Shown piece after piece: positions 8,159 to 63,384 of a stretch of 64,000 nucleotides of DNA (its first letter is position 1; the number at the start of each line of letters is the position of its first letter). The position numbers and the translations under genes are program-made. Below the pieces are notes generated by a model. The model made no database searches and was not told the origin of the DNA. It saw nothing but the letters and a program-made list of their open reading frames with translations. The stretch covers positions 2,982,501-3,046,500 of the forward strand of contig NC_007776.1 of NCBI RefSeq assembly GCF_000013225.1. The letters run 5' to 3'. The stretch is from Synechococcus sp. JA-2-3B'a(2-13) (GTDB lineage Bacteria > Cyanobacteriota > Cyanobacteriia > Thermostichales > Thermostichaceae).

Positions 8159-9663
8159 AGATCGTATCCAAACAGGCGGGGATCCGCCGGCTGCCAATTG
8201 AGATCCGCCAGGCCATATTCTGCCCAGCGGCGATCCACCAAGCGGGCCACCTCCGGATCTGGAGCAAGGGGCTCCCGCCAGGGAGCATCGGTTTCTGGGG
8301 GAATTTTGGTGGTGGCATCAATGCCCATCTTGCCCCCCAGACCCCGTTTTTCGGTGGCAAAGTCCAAGGTGTCAAAGGGGTTGTCCGCCAGAATAAACAC
8401 ATCCCGCTGCGGATCCACCCGCGAACACAGACACCAGAGCACCTGCCGTGGATCCCGCACATTGATATCCTTGTCCACCACGATCACAAACTTGGTGTAG
8501 CTAAATTGGGGCAGGGCGCTCCAAAAAGCCAAAGCCGCCCGCCGCGCCTGGCCAGGGTAGGCCTTGTCGATGGAGAGGATGGCTGCTTTGTAGCCCAGCG
8601 CCTCCATCGGCAAAAAGAAATCTACAATCTCCGGCACCTGCTGCCTGAGGATGGGGGTGTAGATGCGGTTCAGGGCCAGCGCCATCATGTCGTTTTCTTT
8701 GGGGGGCTTGCCGCTGAAGGTGGTGAGATAGATGGGATCCCGGCGGTGGGTCAGGCAGTGGAAGCGAATCAGAGGAGCCTGCTCGTTGCGGGGGCCGTAG
8801 TAGCCGATGTGATCTCCGGCAGGCCCATCGGGGGCCACTTCCCCAGGGGTGATGCTGCCTTCCAGAACGATCTCAGCATGGGCCGGCACCTGCAGATCCA
8901 CCGTTTTGCACTGGGCCAGGTGCAACCCTTCTCCGGCATAGAGACCGGCAAACAGCCACTCCGACAGATCCACCGGCAGGGGTGTGGCCGCCGCCAGAAT
9001 CACCACCGGATCCACCCCCACCGCCACCGCCACCTCCAACTTTTGGCCCAGGGCCGCCGCTTTGCGCAGATGCCGAGTCGCCCCCCGCACCGACAGCCAT
9101 TGCACCGTCATGGTGTTGCGGCTTTGCAACTGCAGGCGGTACACCCCCACGTTGGGGATCCCATTTTCCGGGTCTTTGGTGACCATCAGGCCCAAGGTCA
9201 GCACCCGTCCGGCATCGCCGGGATAGACCCGCAACAGGGGCAATTGGGTGAGATCCACTTCCTCTCCCCGCAGCACCACCTGCTGACAGGGAGGAAGCAG
9301 ATCCCGGCTGGGTTTAGCTTTGAGTACGCTAAACAGAGCTTGTCCCAACTCCACCGCCTGGGCAAAGGTTTTGGGGGGCCGTGGCTGGTAGAGCAAGGCC
9401 AATTTTTTCCCCAAGGTCTCCAGCTCCTGCGGCTGCTCCATCCCCATCGCCCAGCAGATGCGCTCCACCGTGCCCAAAACATTGATCAACAGCGGCATAC
9501 GGGATCCCTTCACCCGCTCAAACAGCAGCGCCGGCCCCCCGCAGGCCAAGAGGCGATCGGCGATCTCGGCAATTTCCAGATCCGGATCCACTTCCGCGGA
9601 AATGCGGCGGAGCTGGCCACGGGATTCCAGCAGAGCAACAAAACGACGCAGATCTCTGGGCAT
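8155..9663 (-). CDS. ubiD: UbiD-family decarboxylase
   Basis: 502 residues. The UbiD family uses prenylated FMN to decarboxylate aromatic acids; in cyanobacteria it is thought to act on 4-hydroxy-3-prenylbenzoate in plastoquinone synthesis. Typical segments are DLRRFVALLESRGQLRRI at the N-terminus, NVGVYRLQ, VAVGVDPVVILAAATPLP, the EIVLEGSITPGE block, GDHIGYYG, and KFVIVVDKDINVRDPRQVLW near the C-terminus. The acidic residues of the E-x-x-E region are present. The UbiX prenyltransferase is not in the window. It is followed upstream, 18 bases away, by a permease gene on the same strand. Confidence 0.92.
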   Translation of the reverse strand: MPRDLRRFVALLESRGQLRRISAEVDPDLEIAEIADRLLACGGPALLFERVKGSRMPLLINVLGTVERICWAMGMEQPQELETLGKKLALLYQPRPPKTFAQAVELGQALFSVLKAKPSRDLLPPCQQVVLRGEEVDLTQLPLLRVYPGDAGRVLTLGLMVTKDPENGIPNVGVYRLQLQSRNTMTVQWLSVRGATRHLRKAAALGQKLEVAVAVGVDPVVILAAATPLPVDLSEWLFAGLYAGEGLHLAQCKTVDLQVPAHAEIVLEGSITPGEVAPDGPAGDHIGYYGPRNEQAPLIRFHCLTHRRDPIYLTTFSGKPPKENDMMALALNRIYTPILRQQVPEIVDFFLPMEALGYKAAILSIDKAYPGQARRAALAFWSALPQFSYTKFVIVVDKDINVRDPRQVLWCLCSRVDPQRDVFILADNPFDTLDFATEKRGLGGKMGIDATTKIPPETDAPWREPLAPDPEVARLVDRRWAEYGLADLNWQPADPRLFGYDL

Positions 9664-13384: not shown

Positions 13385-16111
13385 ATGGATCTGATCCTGT
13401 GCCATCAATCGGCGGATTTCGACACCCTAGGGGCGGCGGTGGGAGCGGCGCGCCTGTATCCGGGTGCCCGCATTGCCTTGGCCGGGGGATCCCTGCCGGG
13501 GGTGCAGGAGTTTTTGGCCTTGTACCGAGATGAATTTCCCCTCATCGAGCTGCGCTCTGTGGATCCGGGACAGGTGCAGCGGTGGATTGTGGTGGACTGT
13601 CACGATCCGGATCGCTTGGGCAAAGCTGCCGCTTGGTTGAGCGTCCCCGGCACCCAAATCGAGATTTTCGACCATCACCTCAGGGATCCGGAAACCCCAC
13701 CGGATGGCTTTTGGCCGCAGCAGCAGGTGAACTGTCATATCGAGGCCGTGGGGGCCACCTGTACCTTGCTGGTGGAGCGGCTGCAGGCTGCTGGGATCCC
13801 TCTCAGCCCTTTTGAGCGGCTGGCGCTGGCTTTGGGCATTCACATGGATACGGGATCCCTGACCTTCCCGGAGACCACCGCCCGCGATGCTGCTGCCCTG
13901 AGCTGGCTGTTGGATCAGGGGGTGAACCTGGTCTTGTTGCGGCGCTTTTTGGGGGATGGCCTCACCCCAGAGATGCGCGAACTGCTCAGCCAGGGGCTGG
14001 CCCAGATGCAGGTGCAGCAGGTGGGAGAGTATCGCCTGGGAGAGTGGCTGCTGGAGCTGCCGGAGTTTGTGCCCGGCCTAGCCGGCCTGGTGATGCGGCT
14101 GATGGATCTGACGGGAGTGGATGTGCTGCTCTTGGTGGCGCGGCAGGGGGAGCGGCTCAGCCTGATCGGGCGGGCGCGGCAGGAGTTTGCCCAGTTGGGC
14201 AGGGTGATGGCCCTCTACGGCGGCGGTGGACACGATTGTGCTGCAGCAGCCACGTTAAAAGCCAGCCCAGAGCAGCCTTTGCCCAACCCGGCCCAAGTCA
14301 TGGCGGCCCTCAGGCAGGCTGTCCAAGAGCGGATCCCGCCCCCGGTGACGGCCAAAGATTTGATGTCGGCTCCGGTGCGCACCATCCGACCGGAGATCAC
14401 CATCGACGAGGCCCAGCGGGTGCTGCTGCGCTACGGCCATTCCGGCCTGGTGGTGGTGGACGCTCAAGGTCGCCTGGTGGGGGTGATCTCGCGGCGGGAT
14501 ATCGATATCGCCCTGCATCACGGGTTTGGCCATGCCCCCGTCAAGGGCTACATGACCACCGACGTGAAAACCCTCTCCCCCGACACCCCCTTGGCGGAGA
14601 TTCAGCGGTTGATGGTGCAGTGGGATATTGGCCGCCTGCCGGTTCTCCAGGATGGACAGTTGGTGGGCATTGTAACTCGCACCGATGTGTTGCGGCACCT
14701 ACACGAGTTGCCGGCCCTCTCACCGCAGTTGGCTTTGCCCACCCTTTCCTGCCCTTTGGATCTCGCCTTCGCGGCCCTGTCGGAGCGGCATCGACAGTTG
14801 CTGGAGCAGGCCGCCCACATCGCCGATGAGAAGGGCCTGAGGTTGTATCTGGTGGGGGGAACGGTGCGGGATCTGCTGCTGCACCGGTGGGGACGGCAGC
14901 CCTCACCCAACCTGGAGCGGCTGGATCTGGACTTGGTGGTGGATGGGCCCTACTCTCCGGCCCTGGATGGGATCGATCCCCCGGGCTGGGGCTTGATTTT
15001 GGGACAAGCGCTCAAACAGCACTTCCCAGAAGCGCGGCTGGAGATCCACGGCAAATTCCAAACGGCGGCCTTGATCTGGCCAGGCGGCTTTTGTGTGGAT
15101 ATCGCCAGCGCCCGCACGGAGTTTTATCCCTACCCGGCCTCTCCCCCCGAAGTGGCCATGGGATCCATTCAGCAAGACCTCTATCGGCGGGATTTTTCCA
15201 TCAACGCCTTGGCCTTGCGCCTCAACGGCCCCCAGCGAGGACAGGTGCTGGATTTTTTCGGCGGACAAGCGGATCTGCAACAGGGGATCATCCGGGCATT
15301 ACACCCCAACAGCTTCATCGAGGATCCCACCCGCATTTATCGGGCGGTGCGCTTTGCGGTGCGCTTGGGCTTCGCCCTGGACTCGACCACAGAAAAATGG
15401 ATCCGCGCTGCTGTGGCCAGTGGTCTGCACGATGCCGTCGGCGGGGATCGCCTCAAGCAGGAGCTGGCCTACATTCTCGGATCCCGCGATTGGCCCCAAG
15501 CCTTTGAGCAGCTGGCAGAATGGGGGGCTTTGCGCTGTATTCACCCCGACCTGGAGTGGGATCCCTCCCTGTGCCGGCGGTTGCAACGGGTGGGCCGCTG
15601 GGCCTATCACTTTCGCCGCCGCTATCCTGAGCTGGGATCCCAGGAGATCTGGCAACTGCGCCTAGAGGCTCTCCTCCTCACGCTGCCCCAAGCCCCCCAG
15701 GTGGCCAGCCAACTCCACCTTACCCAAGCAGGCATCGAACGCCTCAGCCATTCCTCCTATTACCAAACCCTGTTGGCCCAATTGGACCCCGGCACCCTCT
15801 CTCCGGCCCAGGTGGTGCAACTGCTGCAGGGGCTGCGGATCCCGGCGGTGATTTTGTTGGCTGGGATCGCCCCCAAGCCGGCCCGGCGGTTGATCTGGCG
15901 CTACTTGCAGGAGTGGTACTGGGTGAAGCCGCTCCTCAACGGCCACGATCTGCGTCGTCTGGGTTACAAGCCAGGTCGCCCCTTCCAAGCCATTTTGGAG
16001 CAACTGCGTTGCCTCACCCTGAACGGCGAACTCACCACCCCGGCAGAAGCTGAAGCCTGGCTACAAGAACACTTCCCCCTGCCGCAAGCTCAATACCGAG
16101 GAAGAAAGTAG
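13385..16111 (+). CDS. DHH phosphoesterase - CBS - poly(A)polymerase/CCA-transferase fusion
   Basis: 908 residues. Domains in order: a DHH phosphoesterase (ADFDTLGAA near residue 10, VDCHDPDRLG, FDHH near 95) with a GGGGHDCAAAAT DHHA1 signature near 280; two CBS motifs, about 320-440 (AKDLMSAPV..., VKGYMTTDV...); then a class II nucleotidyltransferase head with GGTVRDLLL and LDLDLVVDG near 490-520; and a PolyA_pol RNA-binding region (DFSINALALRL, DPTRIYRAVRFAVRLG). Cyanobacteria and Aquifex have this architecture for split CC- or A-adding tRNA enzymes; which nucleotide is added cannot be read here. The start at 13385 rather than 13352 matches the usual MDLILCHQ N-terminus. Confidence 0.9.
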   Translation: MDLILCHQSADFDTLGAAVGAARLYPGARIALAGGSLPGVQEFLALYRDEFPLIELRSVDPGQVQRWIVVDCHDPDRLGKAAAWLSVPGTQIEIFDHHLRDPETPPDGFWPQQQVNCHIEAVGATCTLLVERLQAAGIPLSPFERLALALGIHMDTGSLTFPETTARDAAALSWLLDQGVNLVLLRRFLGDGLTPEMRELLSQGLAQMQVQQVGEYRLGEWLLELPEFVPGLAGLVMRLMDLTGVDVLLLVARQGERLSLIGRARQEFAQLGRVMALYGGGGHDCAAAATLKASPEQPLPNPAQVMAALRQAVQERIPPPVTAKDLMSAPVRTIRPEITIDEAQRVLLRYGHSGLVVVDAQGRLVGVISRRDIDIALHHGFGHAPVKGYMTTDVKTLSPDTPLAEIQRLMVQWDIGRLPVLQDGQLVGIVTRTDVLRHLHELPALSPQLALPTLSCPLDLAFAALSERHRQLLEQAAHIADEKGLRLYLVGGTVRDLLLHRWGRQPSPNLERLDLDLVVDGPYSPALDGIDPPGWGLILGQALKQHFPEARLEIHGKFQTAALIWPGGFCVDIASARTEFYPYPASPPEVAMGSIQQDLYRRDFSINALALRLNGPQRGQVLDFFGGQADLQQGIIRALHPNSFIEDPTRIYRAVRFAVRLGFALDSTTEKWIRAAVASGLHDAVGGDRLKQELAYILGSRDWPQAFEQLAEWGALRCIHPDLEWDPSLCRRLQRVGRWAYHFRRRYPELGSQEIWQLRLEALLLTLPQAPQVASQLHLTQAGIERLSHSSYYQTLLAQLDPGTLSPAQVVQLLQGLRIPAVILLAGIAPKPARRLIWRYLQEWYWVKPLLNGHDLRRLGYKPGRPFQAILEQLRCLTLNGELTTPAEAEAWLQEHFPLPQAQYRGRK

Positions 16112-26152: not shown

Positions 26153-27370
26153 ATGAGCCAAGTCCTGACCGTCTCCTGTAAGCTCAAGGCGTCCCCGTCG
26201 CAAGCCGCCAAATTGGACGCGACGATGGATGCCTTTGTACAGGCATTGAACTGGGTCAACCAAAACACACCAGAAAAAGTAGTCAACGCAGTCAAACTCC
26301 AATCCCTTTGCTACTACGAGATTCGAGCCCGGTTTGGCTTGTCCAGTAACTTGGCAAGGACTACGTCCCGCTTACGCGACCAACAGGTGTGCAGACGGGT
26401 AGCGGGTTCCCGCAAAGTGGCTAAGCAGAAAAAGCGTCCCGTCAAGGAGTTTAAGAGCGGCTTTGTTACCTACGACGCTCGCATCTTTTCGTTCCGTCAA
26501 AAAGACTGGACGGTGTCGCTCACCACGGTTGAAGGGAGAGAACGCTTTGAGCTAGCCATTGGCAACTACCAGCGTGGGATGCTGGCTGGTTCCAACCCCA
26601 AATCGGCCACCCTAGTCCAGCGGAAGGACGGCTCCTACTACATCCAGATTTGCGTAGAGAAAAAACCACCCAAGCAACAAGATACCGACAAGGTGATCGG
26701 GGTGGATTTGGGAAGGATAGATATCGCTCATACCTCAGAGGGGAAGAACTGGAATGGACAGCAGTTGAACAGAGTCCGAGACCACTACTCCCGGTTGAGG
26801 GCGGTACTCCAACGCAAAGCCAGTAAGGGCACACGCAGTTCGCGGCGCAGATGCAGAGAACTGTTGCAACGGCTGTCTGGCAAGGAGAGACGCTTTCAAG
26901 TGTGGGTCAATCATCGCATCTCCAAAGCTATTGTCTCTAGGGCAAAAGCTACCAACAGCGCTATCGCTCTGGAAGACCTGACAGGGATCCGGGAAAGGGT
27001 CAATCAACAGCCACGCAGCAAAACCGAAAGGCGCAGAACCAACAGTTGGGCGTTCTACCAACTACGTCAATTTCTGGAGTACAAGGCGAGGGTTGCAGGG
27101 GTTTCTCTGATTCTTGTGCCGCCCGCCTACACGTCGCAGACCTGCCACCGGTGTTTGCACATTCATCCCGACCCTGCGCAATCCTACCGCAGTGGTAAGT
27201 CGTTCAAGTGTGGGCACTGTGGATGGGAAGGGGATGCGGACTTGAATGGTGCAAACGTAATTGCGCTCTTGGGGGCTGCCGTAAACCAGCCTGGAGGTCC
27301 GGGCTTGTTTTGTTCTCTGGTAGAGCAGAGCAGGCTCAGGGCTACTGAAAGCCCGCTCCGTACCGCTTAG
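26153..27370 (+). CDS. tnpB: TnpB RNA-guided nuclease, element 1
   Basis: 405 residues from the ATG at 26153 (MSQVLTVSCKL). The RuvC-like triad is complete: Asp185 in GVDLGRIDIA, Glu274 in ALEDLTGIR, Asp363 in GDADLNGANVIA. The zinc ribbon CHRC...CGHC is intact. TnpB proteins cut DNA guided by an omega-RNA made from the 3' end of the gene and the right end of the element. The frame can also start at TTG 26132 or ATG 26135, but the chosen start fits the family N-terminus. The stop codon lies inside the right-end hairpin, so gene and omega-RNA overlap as expected. Confidence 0.9.
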   Translation: MSQVLTVSCKLKASPSQAAKLDATMDAFVQALNWVNQNTPEKVVNAVKLQSLCYYEIRARFGLSSNLARTTSRLRDQQVCRRVAGSRKVAKQKKRPVKEFKSGFVTYDARIFSFRQKDWTVSLTTVEGRERFELAIGNYQRGMLAGSNPKSATLVQRKDGSYYIQICVEKKPPKQQDTDKVIGVDLGRIDIAHTSEGKNWNGQQLNRVRDHYSRLRAVLQRKASKGTRSSRRRCRELLQRLSGKERRFQVWVNHRISKAIVSRAKATNSAIALEDLTGIRERVNQQPRSKTERRRTNSWAFYQLRQFLEYKARVAGVSLILVPPAYTSQTCHRCLHIHPDPAQSYRSGKSFKCGHCGWEGDADLNGANVIALLGAAVNQPGGPGLFCSLVEQSRLRATESPLRTA

Positions 27371-30853: not shown

Positions 30854-33331
30854 ATGCGCATCTCCTTGAAGTGGCTGCGAGAACTGGTGGATTTCCAACT
30901 TTCACCCGAAGAACTGGGGGAGGCCCTCACCCTGGCGGGGTTTGAAGTGGAAGAGATCGAAGACCGCCGCACCTGGGCAGATGGGGTGGTTTTGGGCAGG
31001 ATCCTGGCTGCCGAGCCTCACCCCAACGCCGACAAGCTGCAGGTTTGCCAGGTGGATTTGGGATCCGATCGGCCTGCCACCATTGTCTGTGGAGCTGCCA
31101 ACGCCCGCCCTGGGATCCTGGTAGCAGTGGCTACACCCGGCACCCATTTGCCCGCCCTCTCCCTCACCATTGCCAAAGCCGACAAGCGGGGGGTGATCTC
31201 GGAGGGCATGATCTGCTCTCTGGCCGAGCTGGGGCTGGAGAAATCTTCCGAAGGGATCCACGAATTCCCGCCCGACTTGGATCTGGAGGCCCATCCGCTT
31301 GGCTCTGATGTGCGTCCTCTTTTGGGCTTGGACGATGTGGTGCTGGATCTCACTTCCACCGCCAACCGGGCCGATGCCCTGAGCATGGTGGGGATCGCCC
31401 GCGAAGTGGCTGCCCTCACCCGCAACCCGCTGCGCCTGCCCCCCGTCCAGCCTCTTCAGGCCAAGCCCATCCCCAACTTTCAGTTGCGCATTGCCGACGC
31501 CAAAGCCTGCCCCGCCTACAGTGGCGTGTTGATCGAAGGGGTGAAAGTCGGCCCTTCCCCCGACTGGCTAAAACACCGACTGGCCGCCGCCGGCATGCGC
31601 TCCATCAACAACGTAGTGGATATTACCAATCTGATCCTGCTGGAATGGGGCCAGCCTTTGCACGCCTTCGACTGGGATCGCCTGCTCCAGGTCATGGGCA
31701 AGAAAAAACCCACCATCGAGGTGCGCTTGGCCCAGCCGGGAGAAACCTTAAAGACCTTGGACGGCCAAACCCGCACCTTGCAAGCCGACAGTCATCTCAT
31801 TGTGGCCGGCAGCCAACCGGTAGCTCTGGCCGGGGTCATGGGAGGGGAAGAAACCGAGGTCGGCTCGACCACCACCCGCATTTTCTTGGAAGCAGCCCTA
31901 TTCGATCCAGCGGTGACGCGGCGCTCGGCCCGGTCTCAAGGTCTGCGCACCGAGGCTTCCACCCGCTATGAGCGAGGGGTTAACTTTGCCACCCTCGATC
32001 AGGCCCGGGATCGGGCGGTGCAGTTGATCCTGGAACTGGCAGGGGGAGCAGTGGCCGGCCTCACCACCTTTGACCAGCGGCCCCCCCTGGAACGCACCCT
32101 GAAATTGCGGCTGTCGCGGCTGATCGATGTGTTGGGGGACGAGGTGCAGGCGGCGGATGTGGAGGAGATCCTATCTGCCTTGGGCTTTCAGCTCTCCCGT
32201 TGCGAAGGGGCCAATTCCCAGAGTGCCCTCTCCCCCGCTACCGAGACGGCAACCGTGGCCAGCTGCGTTTGGCAGGTCGTCGTTCCCCCCTATCGCCTGC
32301 GGGACATTGAGCGGGAGATCGACCTCATCGAGGAGTTTGCCCGTCTCTACGGCTATGACCGCTTCTCGGAAACCCTACCCACCGAGCCGCAGGTGGGATC
32401 CCTTTCGGCGCGGGAAACGTTCACCCGCCAGATCCGAGAAGTGCTGCGCGGCATTGGCCTGACAGAGGTATATCACATCTCCCTCTGCCCAGCGGAGGAG
32501 GATGGATCCCTGGTGAGGATTGCCAATCCACTTTCGCCTGAATATTCAGCCGTGCGCAATGCGCTACTTCCCGGCCTGGTGGAGGCCTTCCGCTTCAACT
32601 GGGATCAAGGCAACGGCCCGCTCCAAGCCTTTGAAATTGGCCGTGTTTTTGCCCATGCCCTTCCCCCCAACCCCCACCCTTACCGGGAAGCTGAGCATAT
32701 CGGCGGTATCTTGGGCGGGGATCCCAATCCCCACGATTGGCAGCACCGCAACCGACCCATGGACTGGTTCGAGGCCAAGGGGCTGCTGGTCTCCGCTCTG
32801 GAGCGGCTGGGATTTGGCCCGGAGTTTCGTCTGGATCCCCCTGAAGAGCAATCGTCCCTGCTTCACCCCGGTCGCCAGGCCAGTTTGTGGATTGAGGGAT
32901 CCCGCATCGGTTTGTTCGGGCAACTGCACCCCCGCCTCTGTCAGGAAAAGGGGCTGCCAGATCAGGTCTATGGGTTTGAGCTGCAGTTGGATCCCTTGCT
33001 GGAAAGCCTGGAGAGACGGGGCATTGTGCAATTTGTCCCCTTTTCGCCCTTTCCTGCTGCCGATCGGGATATCGCCTTCTTTGCGCCACTCGACCTTGCC
33101 GTTGGTGAGATCGAGAAGGTTATCCGTCGAGCGGGCGGAGAACTTCTCCAATCGGTGCAGCTTTTCGACGAGTACCGGGGCCAAGGAGTACCTGCAGGGC
33201 AGCGCAGCCTTGCCTTCCGCCTAGTGTACCGCGCTCCCGATCGCACCCTCACGGATGCGGAGGTAGAAGCTCTGCAAAACCAGGTGAGGGCGCAGTTGGC
33301 AACACAATTTCCGGTGACCTTGCGCAGCTAG
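30854..33331 (+). CDS. pheT: Phenylalanine-tRNA ligase beta subunit
   Basis: 825 residues from the ATG at 30854. Domains in order: B1 (MRISLKWLRELVDF), tRNA-binding OB-fold (EPHPNADKLQVCQVDLG, near 45-150), B3/B4 (RSINNVVDITNLILLEWGQPLHAFD; TRYERGVNFA), B5, the catalytic-like core (FARLYGYDRFSETLP; NPLSPEYSAVRNALLPGLVEAFRFN), and the C-terminal ferredoxin-fold anticodon-binding domain (FPAADRDIAFFAP...TDAEVEALQNQVRAQL). The frame is open to 30440, but the upstream part is out of family. pheS is not in the window. Confidence 0.96.
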   Translation: MRISLKWLRELVDFQLSPEELGEALTLAGFEVEEIEDRRTWADGVVLGRILAAEPHPNADKLQVCQVDLGSDRPATIVCGAANARPGILVAVATPGTHLPALSLTIAKADKRGVISEGMICSLAELGLEKSSEGIHEFPPDLDLEAHPLGSDVRPLLGLDDVVLDLTSTANRADALSMVGIAREVAALTRNPLRLPPVQPLQAKPIPNFQLRIADAKACPAYSGVLIEGVKVGPSPDWLKHRLAAAGMRSINNVVDITNLILLEWGQPLHAFDWDRLLQVMGKKKPTIEVRLAQPGETLKTLDGQTRTLQADSHLIVAGSQPVALAGVMGGEETEVGSTTTRIFLEAALFDPAVTRRSARSQGLRTEASTRYERGVNFATLDQARDRAVQLILELAGGAVAGLTTFDQRPPLERTLKLRLSRLIDVLGDEVQAADVEEILSALGFQLSRCEGANSQSALSPATETATVASCVWQVVVPPYRLRDIEREIDLIEEFARLYGYDRFSETLPTEPQVGSLSARETFTRQIREVLRGIGLTEVYHISLCPAEEDGSLVRIANPLSPEYSAVRNALLPGLVEAFRFNWDQGNGPLQAFEIGRVFAHALPPNPHPYREAEHIGGILGGDPNPHDWQHRNRPMDWFEAKGLLVSALERLGFGPEFRLDPPEEQSSLLHPGRQASLWIEGSRIGLFGQLHPRLCQEKGLPDQVYGFELQLDPLLESLERRGIVQFVPFSPFPAADRDIAFFAPLDLAVGEIEKVIRRAGGELLQSVQLFDEYRGQGVPAGQRSLAFRLVYRAPDRTLTDAEVEALQNQVRAQLATQFPVTLRS

Positions 33332-33400
33332 CCGACCCCTCTGTAGCTACTATAACATCCTCCCGGCGCTCGTCCTGTGGACAGGGCGCGGGCTACCCTT

Positions 33401-33424
33401 CCCGTCAGCAGGACGGAGTCCTTA
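33401..33424 (+). repeat. 24-bp dispersed hairpin repeat, copy 2
   Basis: Stem AGGAC/GTCCT around loop GGA, preceded by GTCAGC. It lies just inside the right end of the leftward IS remnant. Confidence 0.6.
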
Positions 33425-33826
33425 CCTCGCAGTTGGGCATTCCTGCCCCACGCCACTTGCCTGGGTCTACAACCCCCGACAAAACGACTGGACAGGTGGT
33501 TCCCCTTCCCCAGCCTCCCTGGCTACTGCCAGCTTGCAAAACAAGTCTAATCCACAGGGAACGGTGCATCGGCAGGCAGGATGGACTCCTGCACCCAGGA
33601 ACCCCTGTCCACCGGACAAGAGCAAGAGGCATCTGGATCAATCCGGTACTTGTAGGTTACCGCCAGCATAAGTAGGTTTTACTACAGATTTCGCTCAACA
33701 GATTTCGCTCAGAGGTATGGCGGGGATCCCTGTATCCCGGTGCTTACCCTGCGGGTAGAGTGCAGGACTGATTGCCCCTGCACCCCGTTAGCTACACCGC
33801 CGGGAAGCCCCGCCCTCTATTAGGGG

Positions 33827-33857
33827 CTAGTGACTAGTGACTAGTGGCTAGCCACTA
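33827..33857. repeat. CTAGTGA heptamer array with palindrome
   Basis: Two CTAGTGA units and one CTAGTGG follow each other directly, then CTAGCCA. The 16 bases 33842-33857 form a perfect palindrome (TAGTGGCT/AGCCACTA). Short tandem heptamers are known in other cyanobacteria. Confidence 0.7.
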
Positions 33858-33996
33858 TCCAGGGTGAGAGTCGGGATGAAAGGCGGGGACATGATGTTTT
33901 GTCCTTGACTGGTGCCATAAACATAAAAAGTAGCGGGGTTTTATACACTGCCGCTATAAACATCAAGTACAGGGTGGTGGGGCATCCCGTCCTTTT

Positions 33997-34020
33997 CGCG
34001 CTAGCAGCGCGGAGCGCTAA
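33997..34020 (+). repeat. 24-bp dispersed hairpin repeat, copy 3
   Basis: Stem AGCGC/GCGCT around loop GGA, preceded by CGCGCTAGC. Inside the tnpB remnant. Confidence 0.6.
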
Positions 34021-34034
34021 CCGGAGTCACTGTT

Positions 34035-34058
34035 CGCGTCAGCGGGACGGAGTCCTTG
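34035..34058 (+). repeat. 24-bp dispersed hairpin repeat, copy 4
   Basis: Stem GGGAC/GTCCT (one G-T wobble) around loop GGA, preceded by CGCGTCAGC. 14 bases after copy 3. Confidence 0.65.
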
Positions 34059-34073
34059 AAGCCCGCACTCTCT

Positions 34074-34097
34074 CGCTTTAGCGGCGCGGAGCGCTTT
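34074..34097 (+). repeat. 24-bp dispersed hairpin repeat, copy 5
   Basis: Stem GGCGC/GCGCT (one wobble) around loop GGA, preceded by CGCTTTAGC. It sits in the loop of the IS right-end hairpin formed by 34062-34070 and 34108-34116. Confidence 0.65.
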
Positions 34098-40696: not shown

Positions 40697-42034
40697 CTAC
40701 GCATGGATGGCTCCTTGCGCAGTCGTCTCGGCGGGTTCCTGCTTCCGACCGCCCGTGCAGTTCGATCCACAGGCCATCCGGGCTGACACGGGTGGTTCAC
40801 CCACCCGCATCCCGACCGCAGCGTCGGCCGTGTCCTGCCCTTCGTCTCGCAACAGCTGTATCCCGCGAGCAAGGATGTTGATGGCACCGACCAGAAAGGC
40901 CTCCGGCCCGCTGCCGCGAAAGGCCTCCGGCCCGCTGCCGCGATCGGCGTTATTCTCATAGCCGCACGCCACGCACTCGAACCAGGCTTGGGTCTGGCGG
41001 TTGTCTGATGAAACATGGCCGCAACATGGACAGGTGCGGCTCGGGTTCTGCGGCGGCACGACAATGAGCCTGCCACCTTTCCAGGCCAGCTTGTACTCCA
41101 GCATGCAGCGGAACTCATACCACCCCTGGTCGAGAATGGCTTTGTTTAACGCTGACTTGGCGCGGACGTTCTTCCCAGGAGCATCTGCTGTCCCTGCCGC
41201 CAACTTGGACATATTCCGCACCCGCAAGTCCTCGATGCACACGATTGCCTGGCTTTTGCAAATCGCGGTCGAGACCTTGTGCAGGAAGTCGCGGCGGGCG
41301 TTGGCCATCTGAGAATGAATACGCTGGAGGCGGGCTTTTGCCTTCTTCCAGTTGTTGCTGAACTTGACTTTGCGGGAGAGCGCTTGCTGGGCCTTGCGCA
41401 AGCGCGCCTCGTGCCGCTTGAAGCTGTTGAGGGGCGCGTAGAACGTGCCGTCCGAGAGGGTAGCCAAGCGGGCAATGCCCATGTCCATGCCCACTGCGCC
41501 CCCCTGCGGAATAGGCCAATTAACCTCCCGCTCGGTCTGAATCGACACGAACCACTTGCCAGCGTGCTTGGATACGGTGACGCTCTTGACCTTGCCCACC
41601 ACGTCGCGGCTGTTGCGATAACGCAGCCAGCCAAGTTTGGGCAGAAAGATGCGGCTGTTGGCCTGGTCCAGCTGGATTTGCTTGGGGTCGGGATAACGGA
41701 AACTGTCCGACCGGCCTTTTTTCTTGAACTTCGGGAAGCCGGCGCGCTGGGCGAAGAAGTGGCTGTAGGCTCGCTCCAAATCCTGGAGCGCCTGTTGCAG
41801 CGGATGCACCGGCGCATCCGCCAGCCACGCCGTATCTGCGCTGTGGCGCCACGCGGTGAGCAGCTGGCACAGGCCCGCATAGCCTAGCTTTTTCTGACCT
41901 TGCTCGTGACGCTCCTTCTGCAACGCCAGTGCTTTGTTGTAGACGAACCGGCAGGAGCCAGCAAAGCGGCGCATCTGCCGTTCCTGCTGGCCGTTGGGCA
42001 GCAATTCGTACTTGAAGGCTTGAAGTCGTTGCAC
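40697..42034 (-). CDS. tnpB: TnpB RNA-guided nuclease, element 2, with repeat-disrupted RuvC-III motif
   Basis: 445 residues, GTG start. N-terminal FKYELLPNGQQERQM and VYNKAL are typical TnpB. The RuvC triad residues are Asp184 (GMDMGIARLA), Glu268 (CIEDLRV) and Asp364 (NNAD), with the zinc ribbon CPCC...CVACG. Directly after Asp364 the family motif ADLVGAINIL is split by 16 residues made of two identical RGSGPEAF units. These are encoded by two tandem 24-bp repeats at 40895-40942. The insertion keeps the frame but probably harms the active site. The C-terminal 60 residues beyond the motif overlap the omega-RNA region. Confidence 0.88.
   Translation of the reverse strand: MQRLQAFKYELLPNGQQERQMRRFAGSCRFVYNKALALQKERHEQGQKKLGYAGLCQLLTAWRHSADTAWLADAPVHPLQQALQDLERAYSHFFAQRAGFPKFKKKGRSDSFRYPDPKQIQLDQANSRIFLPKLGWLRYRNSRDVVGKVKSVTVSKHAGKWFVSIQTEREVNWPIPQGGAVGMDMGIARLATLSDGTFYAPLNSFKRHEARLRKAQQALSRKVKFSNNWKKAKARLQRIHSQMANARRDFLHKVSTAICKSQAIVCIEDLRVRNMSKLAAGTADAPGKNVRAKSALNKAILDQGWYEFRCMLEYKLAWKGGRLIVVPPQNPSRTCPCCGHVSSDNRQTQAWFECVACGYENNADRGSGPEAFRGSGPEAFLVGAINILARGIQLLRDEGQDTADAAVGMRVGEPPVSARMACGSNCTGGRKQEPAETTAQGAIHA
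40895..40942 (-). repeat. 24-bp dispersed hairpin repeat, copies 7 and 8 in perfect tandem
   Basis: Two identical units, 40895-40918 and 40919-40942. On the reverse strand each has stem GGGCC/GGCCT (one wobble) around loop GGA, preceded by CGCGGCAGC. In frame inside tnpB. Confidence 0.75.
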
Positions 42035-58236: not shown

Positions 58237-58301
58237 AGTTAGGAACCAATACACAAATGTTTCATTCCTGTCTAAAATGACTATAAAACGACCGTAGAAT
58301 G

Positions 58302-58883
58302 TCAGGTGGACCAGATCTTGCGGATGGGCAAGGTGAAGCCCGGCAGCACGTCCTCTCCCGATAAGGTTTCCGGATCTTCGACCAATTCCGGCGCTTGCCC
58401 TTGTCGGTAGATCATCACCCGCTTGGCCTTGGGATCCAGCAGCCACCCCAGCCGGCAGCCGTTGTCCATGTATTCTTGCATCTTGGCCTGAGTTTGAATC
58501 CAAGAGTCGGTGGGCGAGAGGATCTCCACCACAAAATCGGGGCACAGGGGCAAAAATCCTTGGCGGGTTTCCGGATCCAAAGCTTCCCACTTTTCAATCG
58601 GGATCCAGGCCAAATCAGGGGAGCGGTCGCTGCCTGAAGGCAAGGAAAATCCGGTGGAAGAATCAAAGCTTTTCCCTCGGCCCGATTGCCGATTCCAAAC
58701 ATAAACTTCCCCGGCAATTTCAAAGTTAAGATTGCCCGTTTCCCCACCGGTTGGAGACATGATGACCAATTCTCCTTGGGCAGTACGCTCCAGCTTCAGC
58801 TCAGGATTGGCGGCACAAAGCCGGATAAAATCTGCTCGGCTGAGGGTTATCAGGGGAGATAGATTCAGAGTCAGAGCAGCCAT
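58302..58883 (-). CDS. Uma2-family (DUF820) putative nuclease, copy A
   Basis: 193 residues. Uma2 proteins have a PD-(D/E)xK nuclease-like fold and are greatly expanded in cyanobacteria; activity is unproven. Seen here: LSRADFIRLCAANPELKLERT, LVIMSPTGGETG, PDLAWIPIEKWEAL and the core CPDFVVEILSPTDS with Asp and Glu, then a Lys region (QTQAKMQEYMDNGCRLGWLLDP). It shares 178 of 193 residues with copy B at 59065; nine of the 15 differences fall in residues 51-62. Confidence 0.88.
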   Translation of the reverse strand: MAALTLNLSPLITLSRADFIRLCAANPELKLERTAQGELVIMSPTGGETGNLNFEIAGEVYVWNRQSGRGKSFDSSTGFSLPSGSDRSPDLAWIPIEKWEALDPETRQGFLPLCPDFVVEILSPTDSWIQTQAKMQEYMDNGCRLGWLLDPKAKRVMIYRQGQAPELVEDPETLSGEDVLPGFTLPIRKIWST

Positions 58884-59064
58884 GGTAGTGTGACTCCGCC
58901 TGTTTTTGGCCTATCGCTCAACATTTTTACTGCAGCTGTTTCCAAGGTTGGGAGAGTTCTGCAATTCCGATCCCTGTCATGCAAGAGATCCATCTGAGTT
59001 AGCTGGGTTAAGGGTGTGGAAAAAATCTGTATCAGGGATCGTAAATCCGTGAAAGCTACTCATA

Positions 59065-59646
59065 TCAAGCCGACCAGATCTTGCGAATGGGCAAGGTGAA
59101 GCCCGGCAGCACGTCCTCTCCTGATAGGGTTTCCGGATCTTCGACCAATTCCGGCGCTTGCCCTTGTCGGTAGATCATCACCCGCTTAGCCTTGGGATCC
59201 AGCAGCCACCCCAGCCGGCAGCCGTTGTCCATGTATTCTTGCATCTTGGCCTGAGTTTGGATCCAAGAATCGGTGGGCGAGAGGATCTCCACCACAAAAT
59301 CGGGGCACAAGGGCAAAAATCCTTGACGGACTGAGGGATCCAAAGCTTCCCACTTTTCAATCGGGATCCAGGCCAAATCAGGGGAGCGGTCGCTGCCTGA
59401 AGGCAAGGAAAATCCGGTGGAAGAATCAAAGCTTTTCCCTCGGCCCGATTGCCGATTCCAAAGGGTTAAGTCTGTGGTGATTTCGGCATTCCAGTGGCCG
59501 GTTTCCCCGCCGGTTGGAGACATGATAACCAATTCTCCTTGAGCGGTACGCTCCAGCTTCAAGTCAGGATTGGCGGCACAAAGCCGAATAAAATCTGCTC
59601 GGCTCAGGGTTGTCAGGGGGGATAGATTCAGAGTCAGAGCAACCAT
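59065..59646 (-). CDS. Uma2-family (DUF820) putative nuclease, copy B
   Basis: 193 residues, tandem paralogue of copy A, 181 bases upstream of it on the same strand. The same catalytic-like residues are present (PDLAWIP, CPDFVVEILSPTDS). Residues 51-62 read HWNAEITTDLTL instead of NLNFEIAGEVYV, while flanking segments are identical, suggesting a replaced tract. The nucleotide sequence outside that tract is also nearly identical, so the duplication is recent or kept alike by gene conversion. Confidence 0.88.
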   Translation of the reverse strand: MVALTLNLSPLTTLSRADFIRLCAANPDLKLERTAQGELVIMSPTGGETGHWNAEITTDLTLWNRQSGRGKSFDSSTGFSLPSGSDRSPDLAWIPIEKWEALDPSVRQGFLPLCPDFVVEILSPTDSWIQTQAKMQEYMDNGCRLGWLLDPKAKRVMIYRQGQAPELVEDPETLSGEDVLPGFTLPIRKIWSA

Positions 59647-59734
59647 GGCAGGCGTTTGGACACTCCTAAACCATTCTTAGAATGAGCCTAATGGGACCTC
59701 AGGATTTGCCCTCTGCTCTTAACCAAGCCACATC

Positions 59735-62700
59735 TTAACTGGGGTGAGGGGCGGGTTTGGTCAGGCCGATCACCTGAGTGTATGCACCGCGGGCCTGGGT
59801 TACACCAATGGTGTGCTCAGCTTTTTCGATCATGGGGCGGCGTAAACTGACCACCAAAAACTGCGCCTGACGAGATTGCTGCCAGATCATATTGGCCAAT
59901 TTTTCCACATTGGCCCCGTCCAAAAACATATCTACTTCATCAAAGGCGTAAAAGCTGGAAGGGCGGAATCGCTGCAGAGCAAAAATAAAGCTGAGGGCTG
60001 TCAAGGATTTTTCTCCTCCCGACATGGCGCTGAGACGGCGCACCGGCTTGCCTTTGGGGTGGGCCACCAAGGTTAGACCGCCTGCGAAGGGATCCTCTGG
60101 GTTTTCCAATTCCAAATGGCCATCCCCATCGGAAAGTTGGGCAAAGATGGTCTGAAAATGGCCGTTGACGGCATGAAAGGCATCCAAGAAGGCTTGCCGA
60201 CGCAGGGTGGAAAAGTTCTCGATGCGCAGCAACAACTCGGTGCGCTCTTGGTGCAGGGTTTCCAGTTTGGCGCTGAGATCCCGCAGGCGAGCTTGGGTCT
60301 GTTCGTATTCGGCAATGGCCAGCATGTTTACCGGCTCCAGGGATCGCAATTGCTCTTCGATTTTGCGTTTTTGCCGTTGCAGCTCGTCTAGGGTCAGGGT
60401 GGCGGGCAAGTTGGGCAGCGGATCCGGCAGCTCTTGGGCCACCGCTTGCAGTTGGGTTTGCAGTTGGGCCAGCAGGGCCTCTTTTTCCTGTTGTTGGGTG
60501 AGGGCGTTGTAGCGTTCCCACTCCAGGCGTTGGATTTGCTGTTGTTGGGCCCGCAGTTGAAATTCCTGCCGATCTCGCTCTTGGCGCAGGTGGGAAAGTC
60601 GGGCCTCGATCTGGCTCATCTGTTGCCGTTGCTCGGCAAGGTGTTGCTGGATTTGGCCAAGGGTGGCTTGGGCTTGGACGATTTGCTCCTGCAGATAGGC
60701 TTGGCGCTGTTTGCTCTCCTGCAGGCGCTCCTGGTGGTGCTGGATTTGGGCCTGTTTCAGGTGTTGTTGGCCGGAGTTCTCCTGCTGTTGCCGCTCCAGT
60801 TGGGTCAGTTGCTGCTGCAGCTCTGCCAAGCGACTTTCCTGCTGCTGCACCGTCTGCTGCAGTTGCTGCCAATGTTGGTTCACCGGGGATCCCTCCAGTT
60901 GGCTGAGCTTGAGGGTGAGATCGGCCAGGCGCTGTTGCAAGGGATCCCAACGCAGTTGAATCTGCTGGAGCCGCTGCTGGATCTGGTGGCTTTCGCTTTG
61001 CCTTTGCGCCAGGGATCCCTGCAGGTGTTGCAGGCGGGCCTGTTGCTTTTGGCAGTCGGCTTGGTGCCGCTCCAGATATTGCTGGGCTTGCAGGGCGTCT
61101 TGGCGAGCCAGGAGCAGGGCTTGGGCCAGTTGTTTTTCGCGGGCTTGGGCTGCTTGTAGGCGCAGGGTGAGGGCGGCCAGCAGTTCCTCCAGCTCGGCCA
61201 AGCGGGAGCGCAAGGCGGCCTCCTCGGAAGGTTCGCCGACAGAAAAATGGATCCCAGCTCGCTGGGGGGCGCTGCCGCCGGTCATGGCGCCCGAAGTTTC
61301 CAACAGCTCCCCTTCCAGAGTAACCATGCGGTGCTTGCCGATGTGGGGCTGGGCCAGCTCTAGGCTTTGGAAAACCAGGGTGGAGCCGAACACAAAGCCG
61401 AAAACATCCCGGTAGCGCTCTTCAAAACGCACCAAACGAATGGCGTAGTCGATCAGGCCGTCCAATTTCAGGGGGCTGGGGGGGCGGGTGGGCTGGAGCT
61501 TATTCAAGGGCAAAAAGGTGGCGCGTCCGGCTTTTTCCCGTTTCAAAAAGTTGACAGCGCTCACGGCCACGGTGTCATCCTCCACCACCACAAAGTGCAG
61601 CCGGTTGCCTGCTGCAACCTCCAGGGCCAGTTGATACTGGGGATCCACCTGCCCCAACTGGGCCACCAACCCCAAAACCCCCGGCAGACGGGCACTCAGG
61701 ATGGCTTGGGTCGCCCGGGATCCCTGGGATTCTTGCAACACTTGGCGGCGGGTTTCCCATTTGTCCAGTTGCCGCTGCTTGGCGTGCAGCTCGACGGTGA
61801 GGCGTTCGTGGGTGGCGCGATCCAACTCCAGGCTGGCCTGCAGTTGCGCCAGCTCTTGGGCCAAAGTTTGAACCTGAGCTTCCGACTGTCGGCAAGTGTG
61901 TTCCAGCTCGGCGGTGAGGGCCAGGTGGGATCCCAGCCACGCCTCGATCTGGGCAATCTCCGCCTGGATCTCTTGGCTTTGCCGTTCCAGTTGCCGTTGT
62001 CGCTCTTGCAGGCGAATTTGCTCCTGTTGGAGAGGCTCCTGTTCGGCGCGAAGTTCCTCAATGTGGCGGGTGAGGTAGCGCTGCTGTTTCACCCAGGCAT
62101 CAGCGGATTGGGCTAGGGCGCGCAGCTGTTCGCGGCTCTGTTCCAAGCTAATTTGGGCTTTCTGAACCTGGGCCTGCAGGGATCCCTGGGCTTGGGCCAG
62201 TTGCTCTTGTTGGCTGTGCAGGTGTTCCAGCTCCGCCTGCAGATGCTGCTGTTGGGCTTGGCACTCCTGATGTAGGCGCTGCGCTTGCTGGATCTCCTCC
62301 TGCCAGGCTGCGATCTGTCGGCTGACCTGTTGCCGCTGTGCTTCGGCGGCGGCGATTTGGGCTTGCAGGTGCAGGTATTCCTCCTCTCCAAGAGCATGGA
62401 TGCGGCTTTGCAACTCGCCCAGGGCGGCTTCGGCCTGTTGCAAATGATCGTTCAAGGTCTGCACCTGAGCAGTGGCCTGCTCCTGAGTTTCCAGAAACCG
62501 CTGAATGGCCGCCTGGGTTTCTTCCACTTGGACTTGCAAATGCCGCCAAAGCAACACCTGTTGCTGCTGCCCCAGCGTTTGCAGCTGCAGCCGCAGTTGC
62601 TGATGGTGTTGAGCCTTTTCGCTCTCTTTGAGCAGCCGTTCTCCCTGGGCTTGCCATTCCTGTTCGATGAGCCGAAAACGCTCAATTTGTTCCCGCACCG

Positions 62701-63301
62701 CCTCCAGCTTGCTGTTGGCCTGGGCGATCTTGCGGTCGAAGGTGGCCACCCCCGCCAATTCGTCGATGATCTGCCGCCGTTCCTTGGGGTGCATGGAAAT
62801 GATACTGGTGACATCCCCTTGTAAAACAACGTTGTAGCCGTTGGGGTAGATGTGCATCGCCTCCAGTTGTTCGTGCAGCTCGCTCAGGGTACAGGGCACA
62901 TCGTTGATATAAAAGGTGCTGGTGTAGGGGAGAGAAAAGGACTCCGTCCCACTATCGCGGGCGAGCTCCTCAGCCTTTCCGGGCCTGACCCGCAGCCGGC
63001 GACTGACTTTCCATTCCCTGGGCTGGCCATCTTCTCCTGGCCCCAGCTCAAAGGTGACGGAAACGTGGGTTTCCACCTGCCGATTGCCGTTGAGGCTGCC
63101 GGAATGCACCAGATCCAAAAGCCTCTCTGCCCGCATCCCCCGCGAGGACGATAAACCCAGCGCGAACAGGATCCCATCCAGGATGTTAGACTTACCGGAG
63201 CCATTGGGGCCGGAAATGACCGTAAAGCCCGGCAGCAGGGGCAACGAGGTGGTGCTGCCAAACGACTTAAATCGGGTCAGCTCAATCCGCTTGATGTACA
63301 T
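59735..63301 (-). CDS. smc: Chromosome segregation protein SMC
   Basis: 1188 residues from the ATG at 63301 ([15 protein letters not shown]). Head domain with Walker A [9 protein letters not shown] near residue 32. Two very Gln-rich coiled-coil arms (about 165-500 and 690-1000) flank the hinge ([36 protein letters not shown], about 540). The C-terminal head has signature [16 protein letters not shown] and Walker B [12 protein letters not shown]. SMC with ScpA/ScpB compacts and separates chromosomes; scpAB are not here. Residues about 115-122 (RDSGTESF) are encoded by a copy of the 24-bp hairpin repeat, probably an in-frame insertion. Confidence 0.96.
   Translation of the reverse strand: [1188 protein letters not shown]
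62936..62959 (-). repeat. 24-bp dispersed hairpin repeat, copy 9, in frame inside smc
   Basis: Reverse-strand stem GGGAC/GTCCT (one wobble) around loop GGA, preceded by CGCGATAGT. Codons read RDSGTESF, the counterpart of RGSGPEAF in tnpB element 2. Confidence 0.65.
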
Positions 63302-63384
63302 CACACCCCACATCTAGCGTGGCCACCAGCATATGATGGCAACAGGCTAGCATGGGTAGCAAAAACCTGTGCAGCTCAAGTTTC

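Follow-up and report, generated by a model that had tools for sequence, protein, structure and literature searches.

Insertion sequences of the IS200/IS605 type, moved by Y1 HuH transposases, carry hairpins that are recognised as single-stranded DNA and insert 3′ of a short target without duplicating it. A different class—the mobile small dispersed repeats (SDRs) of Nostoc punctiforme and its relatives—was reportedly described by Elhai et al. in 2008, and how repeats too short to code for a protein multiply within a bacterial genome has been an open question since that description. One of them, SDR5, inserts precisely between nucleotides 3 and 4 of the HIP1 sequence (GCG|ATCGC) (PMC4390886). 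REPs and REPINs, which are associated with RAYT, are short dispersed hairpins, often arranged as doublets, that are thought to be moved in trans as folded single-stranded DNA (PMC3116915, PMC3733652, PMC6006769); a GTAG/GTGG or CGTC tag defines the REPs (PMC6006769). Rickettsia palindromic elements (RPEs; Ogata et al. 2000) are palindromic selfish DNA that is found in frame in many unrelated genes (PMC10969869).

The window analysed here—the whole stretch of 64,000 nucleotides—comprises positions 2982501–3046500 of a single 3,046,682-bp chromosome. A first-pass annotation made from the letters alone had noticed a repeat read in frame within the SMC head domain. The codons, position, and minus strand of this reading are confirmed: 62936–62959 (−) is CGCGATAGTGGGACGGAGTCCTTT, which lies in the smc frame with the codons CGC-GAT-AGT-GGG-ACG-GAG-TCC-TTT and translates as RDSGTESF, and NCBIfam TIGR02169 names the ORF SMC_prok_A (1195 bits, cut-off 729). 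While the codon-aligned coordinates are thus present as given, the register of the repeat family is shifted by one base. The features of this site are as follows.

59735–63313 (−): smc host gene, SMC_prok_A, 1192 aa (ORF and NCBIfam TIGR02169)
62937–62960 (−): 24-nt unit CCGCGATAGTGGGACGGAGTCCTT (consensus TCGCGTYAGCGGGACGGAGTCCTT), coding RDSGTESF; exact 24-nt gap in the SMC gene of the congener G001
62950–62959 (−): mini-hairpin 1 of the SMC copy, CGC-GATA-GTG, with a GNNA loop and a G-T pair (from the consensus DNA fold)
62939–62949 (−): mini-hairpin 2 of the SMC copy, GGAC-GGA-GTCC, with a GNA loop and a C-G closing pair (from the DNA fold and stem covariation in 108 distinct units)
62961–62964 (−): left target bases of the SMC copy, now TCGC, ancestrally CCGA as in the family target C-Y-R-A (G001 empty site AGGATCCCGA|TTCCCTG)

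Hairpin 1 of the SMC copy has decayed from CGC-GNNA-GCG and is lost in the DNA fold of this copy. Just downstream of smc lie two direct repeats, 58299–58888 and 59062–59651 (300 nt at 94%, 155 nt at 92%), whose constant 763-bp offset marks a recent tandem duplication.

The repeat belongs to a large family. The genome holds 203 copies of its 12-base core GGGACGGAGTCC and 4 of the reversed control, which amounts to an excess of about 50-fold; within the window, AGTGGGACGGAGTCC with up to three mismatches is found eight times against 2.1 expected. For the detailed study, 1.26 Mb of the own genome (G000), 1.2 Mb of G001, and 0.36 Mb of G004 were used—G001 to G005 being members of the same genus and G004 (L031, the M44_DOE_062 MAG) the closest relative. 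The stretches of the own genome were chosen around known copies, and its 230 units in 1.26 Mb (0 in a 1.2-Mb second-order Markov control), like all densities and in-gene fractions given here, describe these copies and not a random sample of the genome. The consensus from aligned copies has the layout T-[CGC GNNA GCG]-[NNNC GNA GNNN]-TT, i.e., two adjacent mini-hairpins within 24 nt. The DNA fold of consensus and subfamilies is.(((....)))((((...)))).., with a GNNA and a GNA loop. Such GNA/GNNA loops with G-C closing pairs form extraordinarily stable DNA mini-hairpins (PMC4686876).

Hairpin 1 is almost invariant, so that its pairing is deduced from conservation alone, covariation being uninformative. 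The second stem, on the other hand, varies on a constant scaffold, and its subfamilies are compensated: GGAC/GTCC, GTGC/GCAC, GGCC/GGCC, TTGC/GCAA, TCGC/GCGA, GCGC/GCGC, and others. In 108 distinct units, picked without requiring complementarity of this stem, 97.5% of the cells pair (82.4% when shuffled) and 113 double-sided changes are counted against 38 in the shuffles. Stem variants also occur near GGAC units (GTGC-GGA-GCAC and TCGC-GTA-GCGA, at 9462–9600 of the sampled stretch L135 and 16322 of L127), which may mean that more than one subfamily is moving at a time. Tandem units also occur, with 29 unit pairs spaced exactly 24 nt apart. Five identical tandem units at 15584–15703 (−) of stretch L166 resemble an expansion rather than separate insertions.

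Further units are present within the window.

26356–26379 (−): full unit, GGAC-GTA-GTCC; the G001 empty site is clean, CTGTTG A GCC
34034–34057 (+): full consensus unit, clustered with decayed units at 33400–33423, 33996–34019, and 34073–34096
40697–42034 (−): TnpB-like ORF, 445 aa
40896–40943 (−): two tandem units, GGCC-GGA-GGCC, in the TnpB-like ORF, coding RGSGPEAF twice

The four-unit cluster 33400–34096 (+), one unit of which is perfect and three decayed, lies in the gap past a 963-aa ORF ending at 33331. In the TnpB-like ORF, the two RGSGPEAF copies directly follow NNAD in the C-terminal nuclease motif region. It had been proposed that the SMC and TnpB segments share one design, and this agrees with their common scaffold; the TnpB stem differs, and the difference is compensated (GGCC/GGCC versus GGAC/GTCC).

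For smc, codon alignment around the insert resolves three states:

own genome: AAG GCT GAG GAG CTC GCC CGC GAT AGT GGG ACG GAG TCC TTT TCT CTC CCC TAC
G004: AAG GCT GAG GAT CCC ACT CGC GAT AGC GGG ACG GAT TCT CTC CCC TAC
G001: AAG GGA GAG GAT CCC GAT TCC CTG CCC TAC

In this alignment, only the own genome and G004 carry the insert, and since these two were assembled independently, it is not an assembly error. The DNA of G001 lacks exactly 24 nt relative to the own gene, leaving the empty site GAT-CCC-GA|T-TCC, and the SMC proteins of G001, G002, G003, and G005 (SPGKGEDPDSLPYTS and similar) are exactly eight residues shorter at this position—the clean gap that the first-pass annotation had suggested looking for. 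The insert is absent from G002, G003, G005, and every outgroup examined; the same residues with other codons in distant cyanobacteria, which would have spoken against an insertion, were not encountered in roughly 50 SMC genes. When the family unit TCGCGATAGCGGGACGGAGTCCTT is placed after GATCCCGA of a G001-type site, the own protein results, a few substitutions apart. Read from these alignments, a single 24-nt insertion at CCGA|T (GATCCCGA|TTCCC) is evidently younger than the split from G001 but older than that from G004, and has decayed since. The G004 insert is otherwise the same as the own one, with a later loss of 6 nt (GTCCTT), and to judge by this loss the insert is decaying in place.

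Hence, it is nearly certain that RDSGTESF is an in-frame insertion of a mobile 24-nt repeat. The explanation as a whole—a fossilised copy of a tiny mobile element common in this genus of hot-spring cyanobacteria—we consider correct with a probability of roughly 85%. Ordinary length variation of a fast-evolving SMC loop with a chance likeness to the repeat might be proposed instead, as cyanobacterial SMC proteins differ greatly in the length of the loop that precedes RRLRV. Yet the site holds the exact family sequence, the gap is exactly 24 nt and lies at the family target, and a sister genome carries matching codons. The probability of this reading is therefore close to nil, and the 50-fold core excess together with the exact 24-nt gaps removes chance and plain loop variation as candidates. 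The link from RRLRV to YTSTY had been taken to be almost direct in other cyanobacteria. It indeed measures 4–5 residues in most of them, but already 10–11 in the genus; here it measures about 20, eight of which are the repeat.

Mobility of the repeat is supported by filled and empty pairs at many loci. For 89 own copies, both flanks were located in the sampled G001, and an exact 24-nt absence is by far the largest class (31 copies; 48 nt in 7). In the reverse direction, eight of 27 G001 copies that are absent from the own genome show 24 nt, and a comparison with G004, at flank identities of 92–96%, again yields a 24-nt difference. From such comparisons, 51 filled/empty junctions were assembled by omitting the unit and matching the flanks ungapped, a few of them from related multi-copy contexts and so not all independent. 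The empty target has C at −4 in 32/51, Y at −3 in 42/51, R at −2 in 48/51, and A at −1 in 43/51. By eye count, R stands at −2 in all of the 25 junctions whose flanks are at least 85% identical, and Y at −3 and A at −1 in 22 each. Beyond the unit, the logo holds information only at −4 to −1, plus a scarcity of C right after the unit. The −1 base is often replaced in the filled state (T 27, G 12, A 10, C 2; n = 51), and target duplication was not seen in the filled/empty comparisons.

These pairs also bear on whether the units are mere passengers of ordinary insertion sequences (ISs) and MITEs. One IS-like context holds about 14 copies, and two others hold about 7 and 6; most copies, however, have unique flanks, and the filled/empty difference is 24 nt alone. 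As the IS contexts have empty versions, the unit was inserted into the IS. We regard the passenger reading as very improbable, and as the only explanation it is ruled out by single-copy gene sites and the empty IS contexts. The context CATTCTGTTTGTTTCCA[unit]AAACAGAATGG recurs in the sampled stretches L117 (3784), L131, L139, L141, L151, L156, L161, L163, L164, L165, and L169; the unit lies there within an older hairpin, of which G001 has near-identical empty copies.

Many copies reside within genes. Gene calls from a simple codon-usage script split 160 deduplicated units from the chosen stretches approximately into 81 in genes, 69 intergenic, and 10 at edges. A copy in a gene adds eight residues, 24 being a multiple of three and most frames being free of stops; one antisense frame of the consensus contains a stop. 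A single coding-strand frame, reading R-x-S-G-T-E-S, accounts for 42 of the 81 in-gene units including the SMC copy, compared with 28.5% expected from the frames of CYGA sites (p = 1e-5) and 24% from those of CYGW. The hosts include metH (residue 612, between the pterin-binding and B12-binding domains), dapB (residue 214), RNase E (residue 583, past the catalytic domain), trpB, and a gene of the HisN/inositol-phosphatase family. This is the pattern expected of selfish insertions that are filtered by selection and kept at tolerant places.

For SMC itself, a surface loop had been suggested as the tolerant place. In a predicted model (mean pLDDT 73.8), the inserted residues 115–122 lie in the connector between strands 94–105 and 126–132 of the head domain, where confidence falls to about 56, and they align to a gap in solved SMC heads. 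The placement in an inter-strand connector thus stands, resting on a moderate-confidence model and this gap: with moderate confidence, RDSGTESF would add eight amino acids to a loop between two head-domain strands. Most likely, the SMC copy is a neutral passenger; a benefit to SMC is not indicated.

Exact cores number 203 in the own genome, 177 in G004, 47 in G001, and 45, 43, and 13 in the remaining congeners, as against about 0–3 outside the genus. Counts of the scaffold CGCG-N(0-2)-AGCG-NNN-CGNAG across 194 genomes of the class show it to be abundant only in the genus (31–357) and in one other family (f32), which we infer to be the Nostocaceae (19–150 in most sampled members, none in one genome); all other genomes are at control level. 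In the units of this family, the first loop contains a single N (CGC-GTA-GCG-TCTC-GTA-GAGA), and the examined copies starting TTCGCG are all preceded by YR. The SDR5 site GCG|A is itself YR|A, and fits the rule of the 24-nt unit, which also admits other sites. HIP1 (GCGATCGC) is rare in the hosts studied here, with 29 and 26 occurrences per 1.2 Mb of G000 and G001, where GGGATCCC reaches 1668 and 1394. The presence of GGGATCCC in place of HIP1 is published for Synechococcus JA-3-3Ab and JA-2-3B (PMC4390886). In search of a vehicle, the exact sequence TCGCGNNAGCGGGACGGAGTCC was not found in the viral contigs of IMG/VR, and no plasmid relatives of the SMC stretch were found.

Since 24 nt offer no coding capacity, whatever moves the unit must act in trans. 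For its movement, we tentatively favour a structure-recognised single-stranded DNA intermediate, since the conserved parts are exactly the DNA-stabilising loops and the target is one-sided without duplication. The unit—predicted to be non-autonomous—would be recognised by the shape of its folded single strand, with the two ultra-stable mini-hairpins taking the role of the end hairpins of IS200/IS605-type elements, and would enter beside YR|A where replication leaves the DNA single-stranded. A plain IS608-type insertion does not predict a changed −1 base, which hence counts against this route. Also against it, the number of Y1/RAYT genes does not correlate with copy number: Y1 genes occur in all six congeners; G000 has 1 intact Y1 and 203 cores, G001 has 19 and 47, and G036 has 13 Y1 and no elements. 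The own intact Y1 protein (HUH motif DHVH) was considered as a member of the special cyanobacterial subclass 1.2 (PMC6006769) and rejected, its motif YIESQ being of the ordinary IS200/IS605 type. A further point against the route is that no replication-strand bias was found by GC skew (88 to 72; weak skew, 1.26 Mb). That a putative dedicated enzyme common to the thermophilic genus and the Nostocaceae inserts a shape-recognised GNA/GNNA element at YR|A is possible, albeit rather unlikely on present data. If true, these units would rank with the smallest mobile DNAs that depend on structure, and would keep supplying core proteins with 8-residue insertions.

An RNA intermediate was reportedly proposed in 2008 for the cyanobacterial small dispersed repeats. 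Hairpins would fold in a transcript, which would be reverse transcribed and inserted at nicks beside YR|A. The compensated stems fit RNA too, nested and tandem copies with 24-nt spacing occur, and 54 of the 81 in-gene copies are on the coding strand—an excess that is, however, small (51–54% expected) and accounted for by the stops that one antisense frame contains. Moreover, the GNA triloop closed by C-G is the sequence that stabilises DNA mini-hairpins (PMC4686876), and we hold the RNA route to be improbable.

We are equally doubtful of movement without any dedicated enzyme, i.e., by template switching or hairpin-mediated repair synthesis at YR|A homologies, with tandems arising by slippage. 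The very small size of the unit, the often changed junction base, and the tandem arrays of identical units would suit such a process; a net gain of sharply 24 nt without length spread and a defined left target would not. Abundance is furthermore limited to two separate lineages, which suggests a lineage-specific factor.

Matched filled and empty sites reveal the ends, the target rule, and the two-hairpin shape, which makes it possible to test how such repeats move. Small repeats put 8-residue segments in frame into SMC, methionine synthase, and dihydrodipicolinate reductase. Protein insertions of this origin have received little study, and they can mislead annotation and structure work.

In the literature searched, which covered few subscription papers, no account of the 24-nt repeat in these thermophiles was found. 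Compared with the known systems, the unit may resemble IS200/IS605 elements in its target—fixed C-Y-R-A on the left, a net gain of 24 nt, no duplication—but it measures 24 nt in all, has no transposase gene, and its −1 base is often replaced. Unlike REPs and REPINs, it is not extragenic, has shorter stems, and lies in coding frames; its logo shows no GTAG or CGTC tag, and the one intact Y1 protein of the own genome belongs to the IS200/IS605 type. Like RPEs, it is inserted in frame in several unrelated genes and has a conserved peptide frame (42/81). RPEs, however, are about 150 bp long (100–150 bp with a long inverted repeat as a class), whereas the unit is 24 nt or eight residues, with two mini-hairpins of 3- and 4-bp stems and without a long inverted repeat. 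To SDRs, the likeness is in length (about 24 nt), dispersal, precise insertion, compensated stems, and tandem copies; the unit, whose 24 nt lie within the span of about 21–27 nt expected of SDRs, is precisely present or absent at orthologous sites, and its hairpin bears compensatory changes (113 double-sided cells, 38 when shuffled). The genus and the second family both have the scaffold CGCG-N-AGCG-NNNC-GNA-G in abundance. The unit differs from SDRs in its host—an early-branching unicellular thermophile in which HIP1 is nearly absent—in targeting C-Y-R-A and not the HIP1 3/4 position of SDR5, in two N instead of one in the first loop, and in lying about half in genes with a preferred frame. 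By analogy, the family thus seems to work like an SDR-type repeat that, in the manner of Rickettsia palindromic elements, settles in reading frames.
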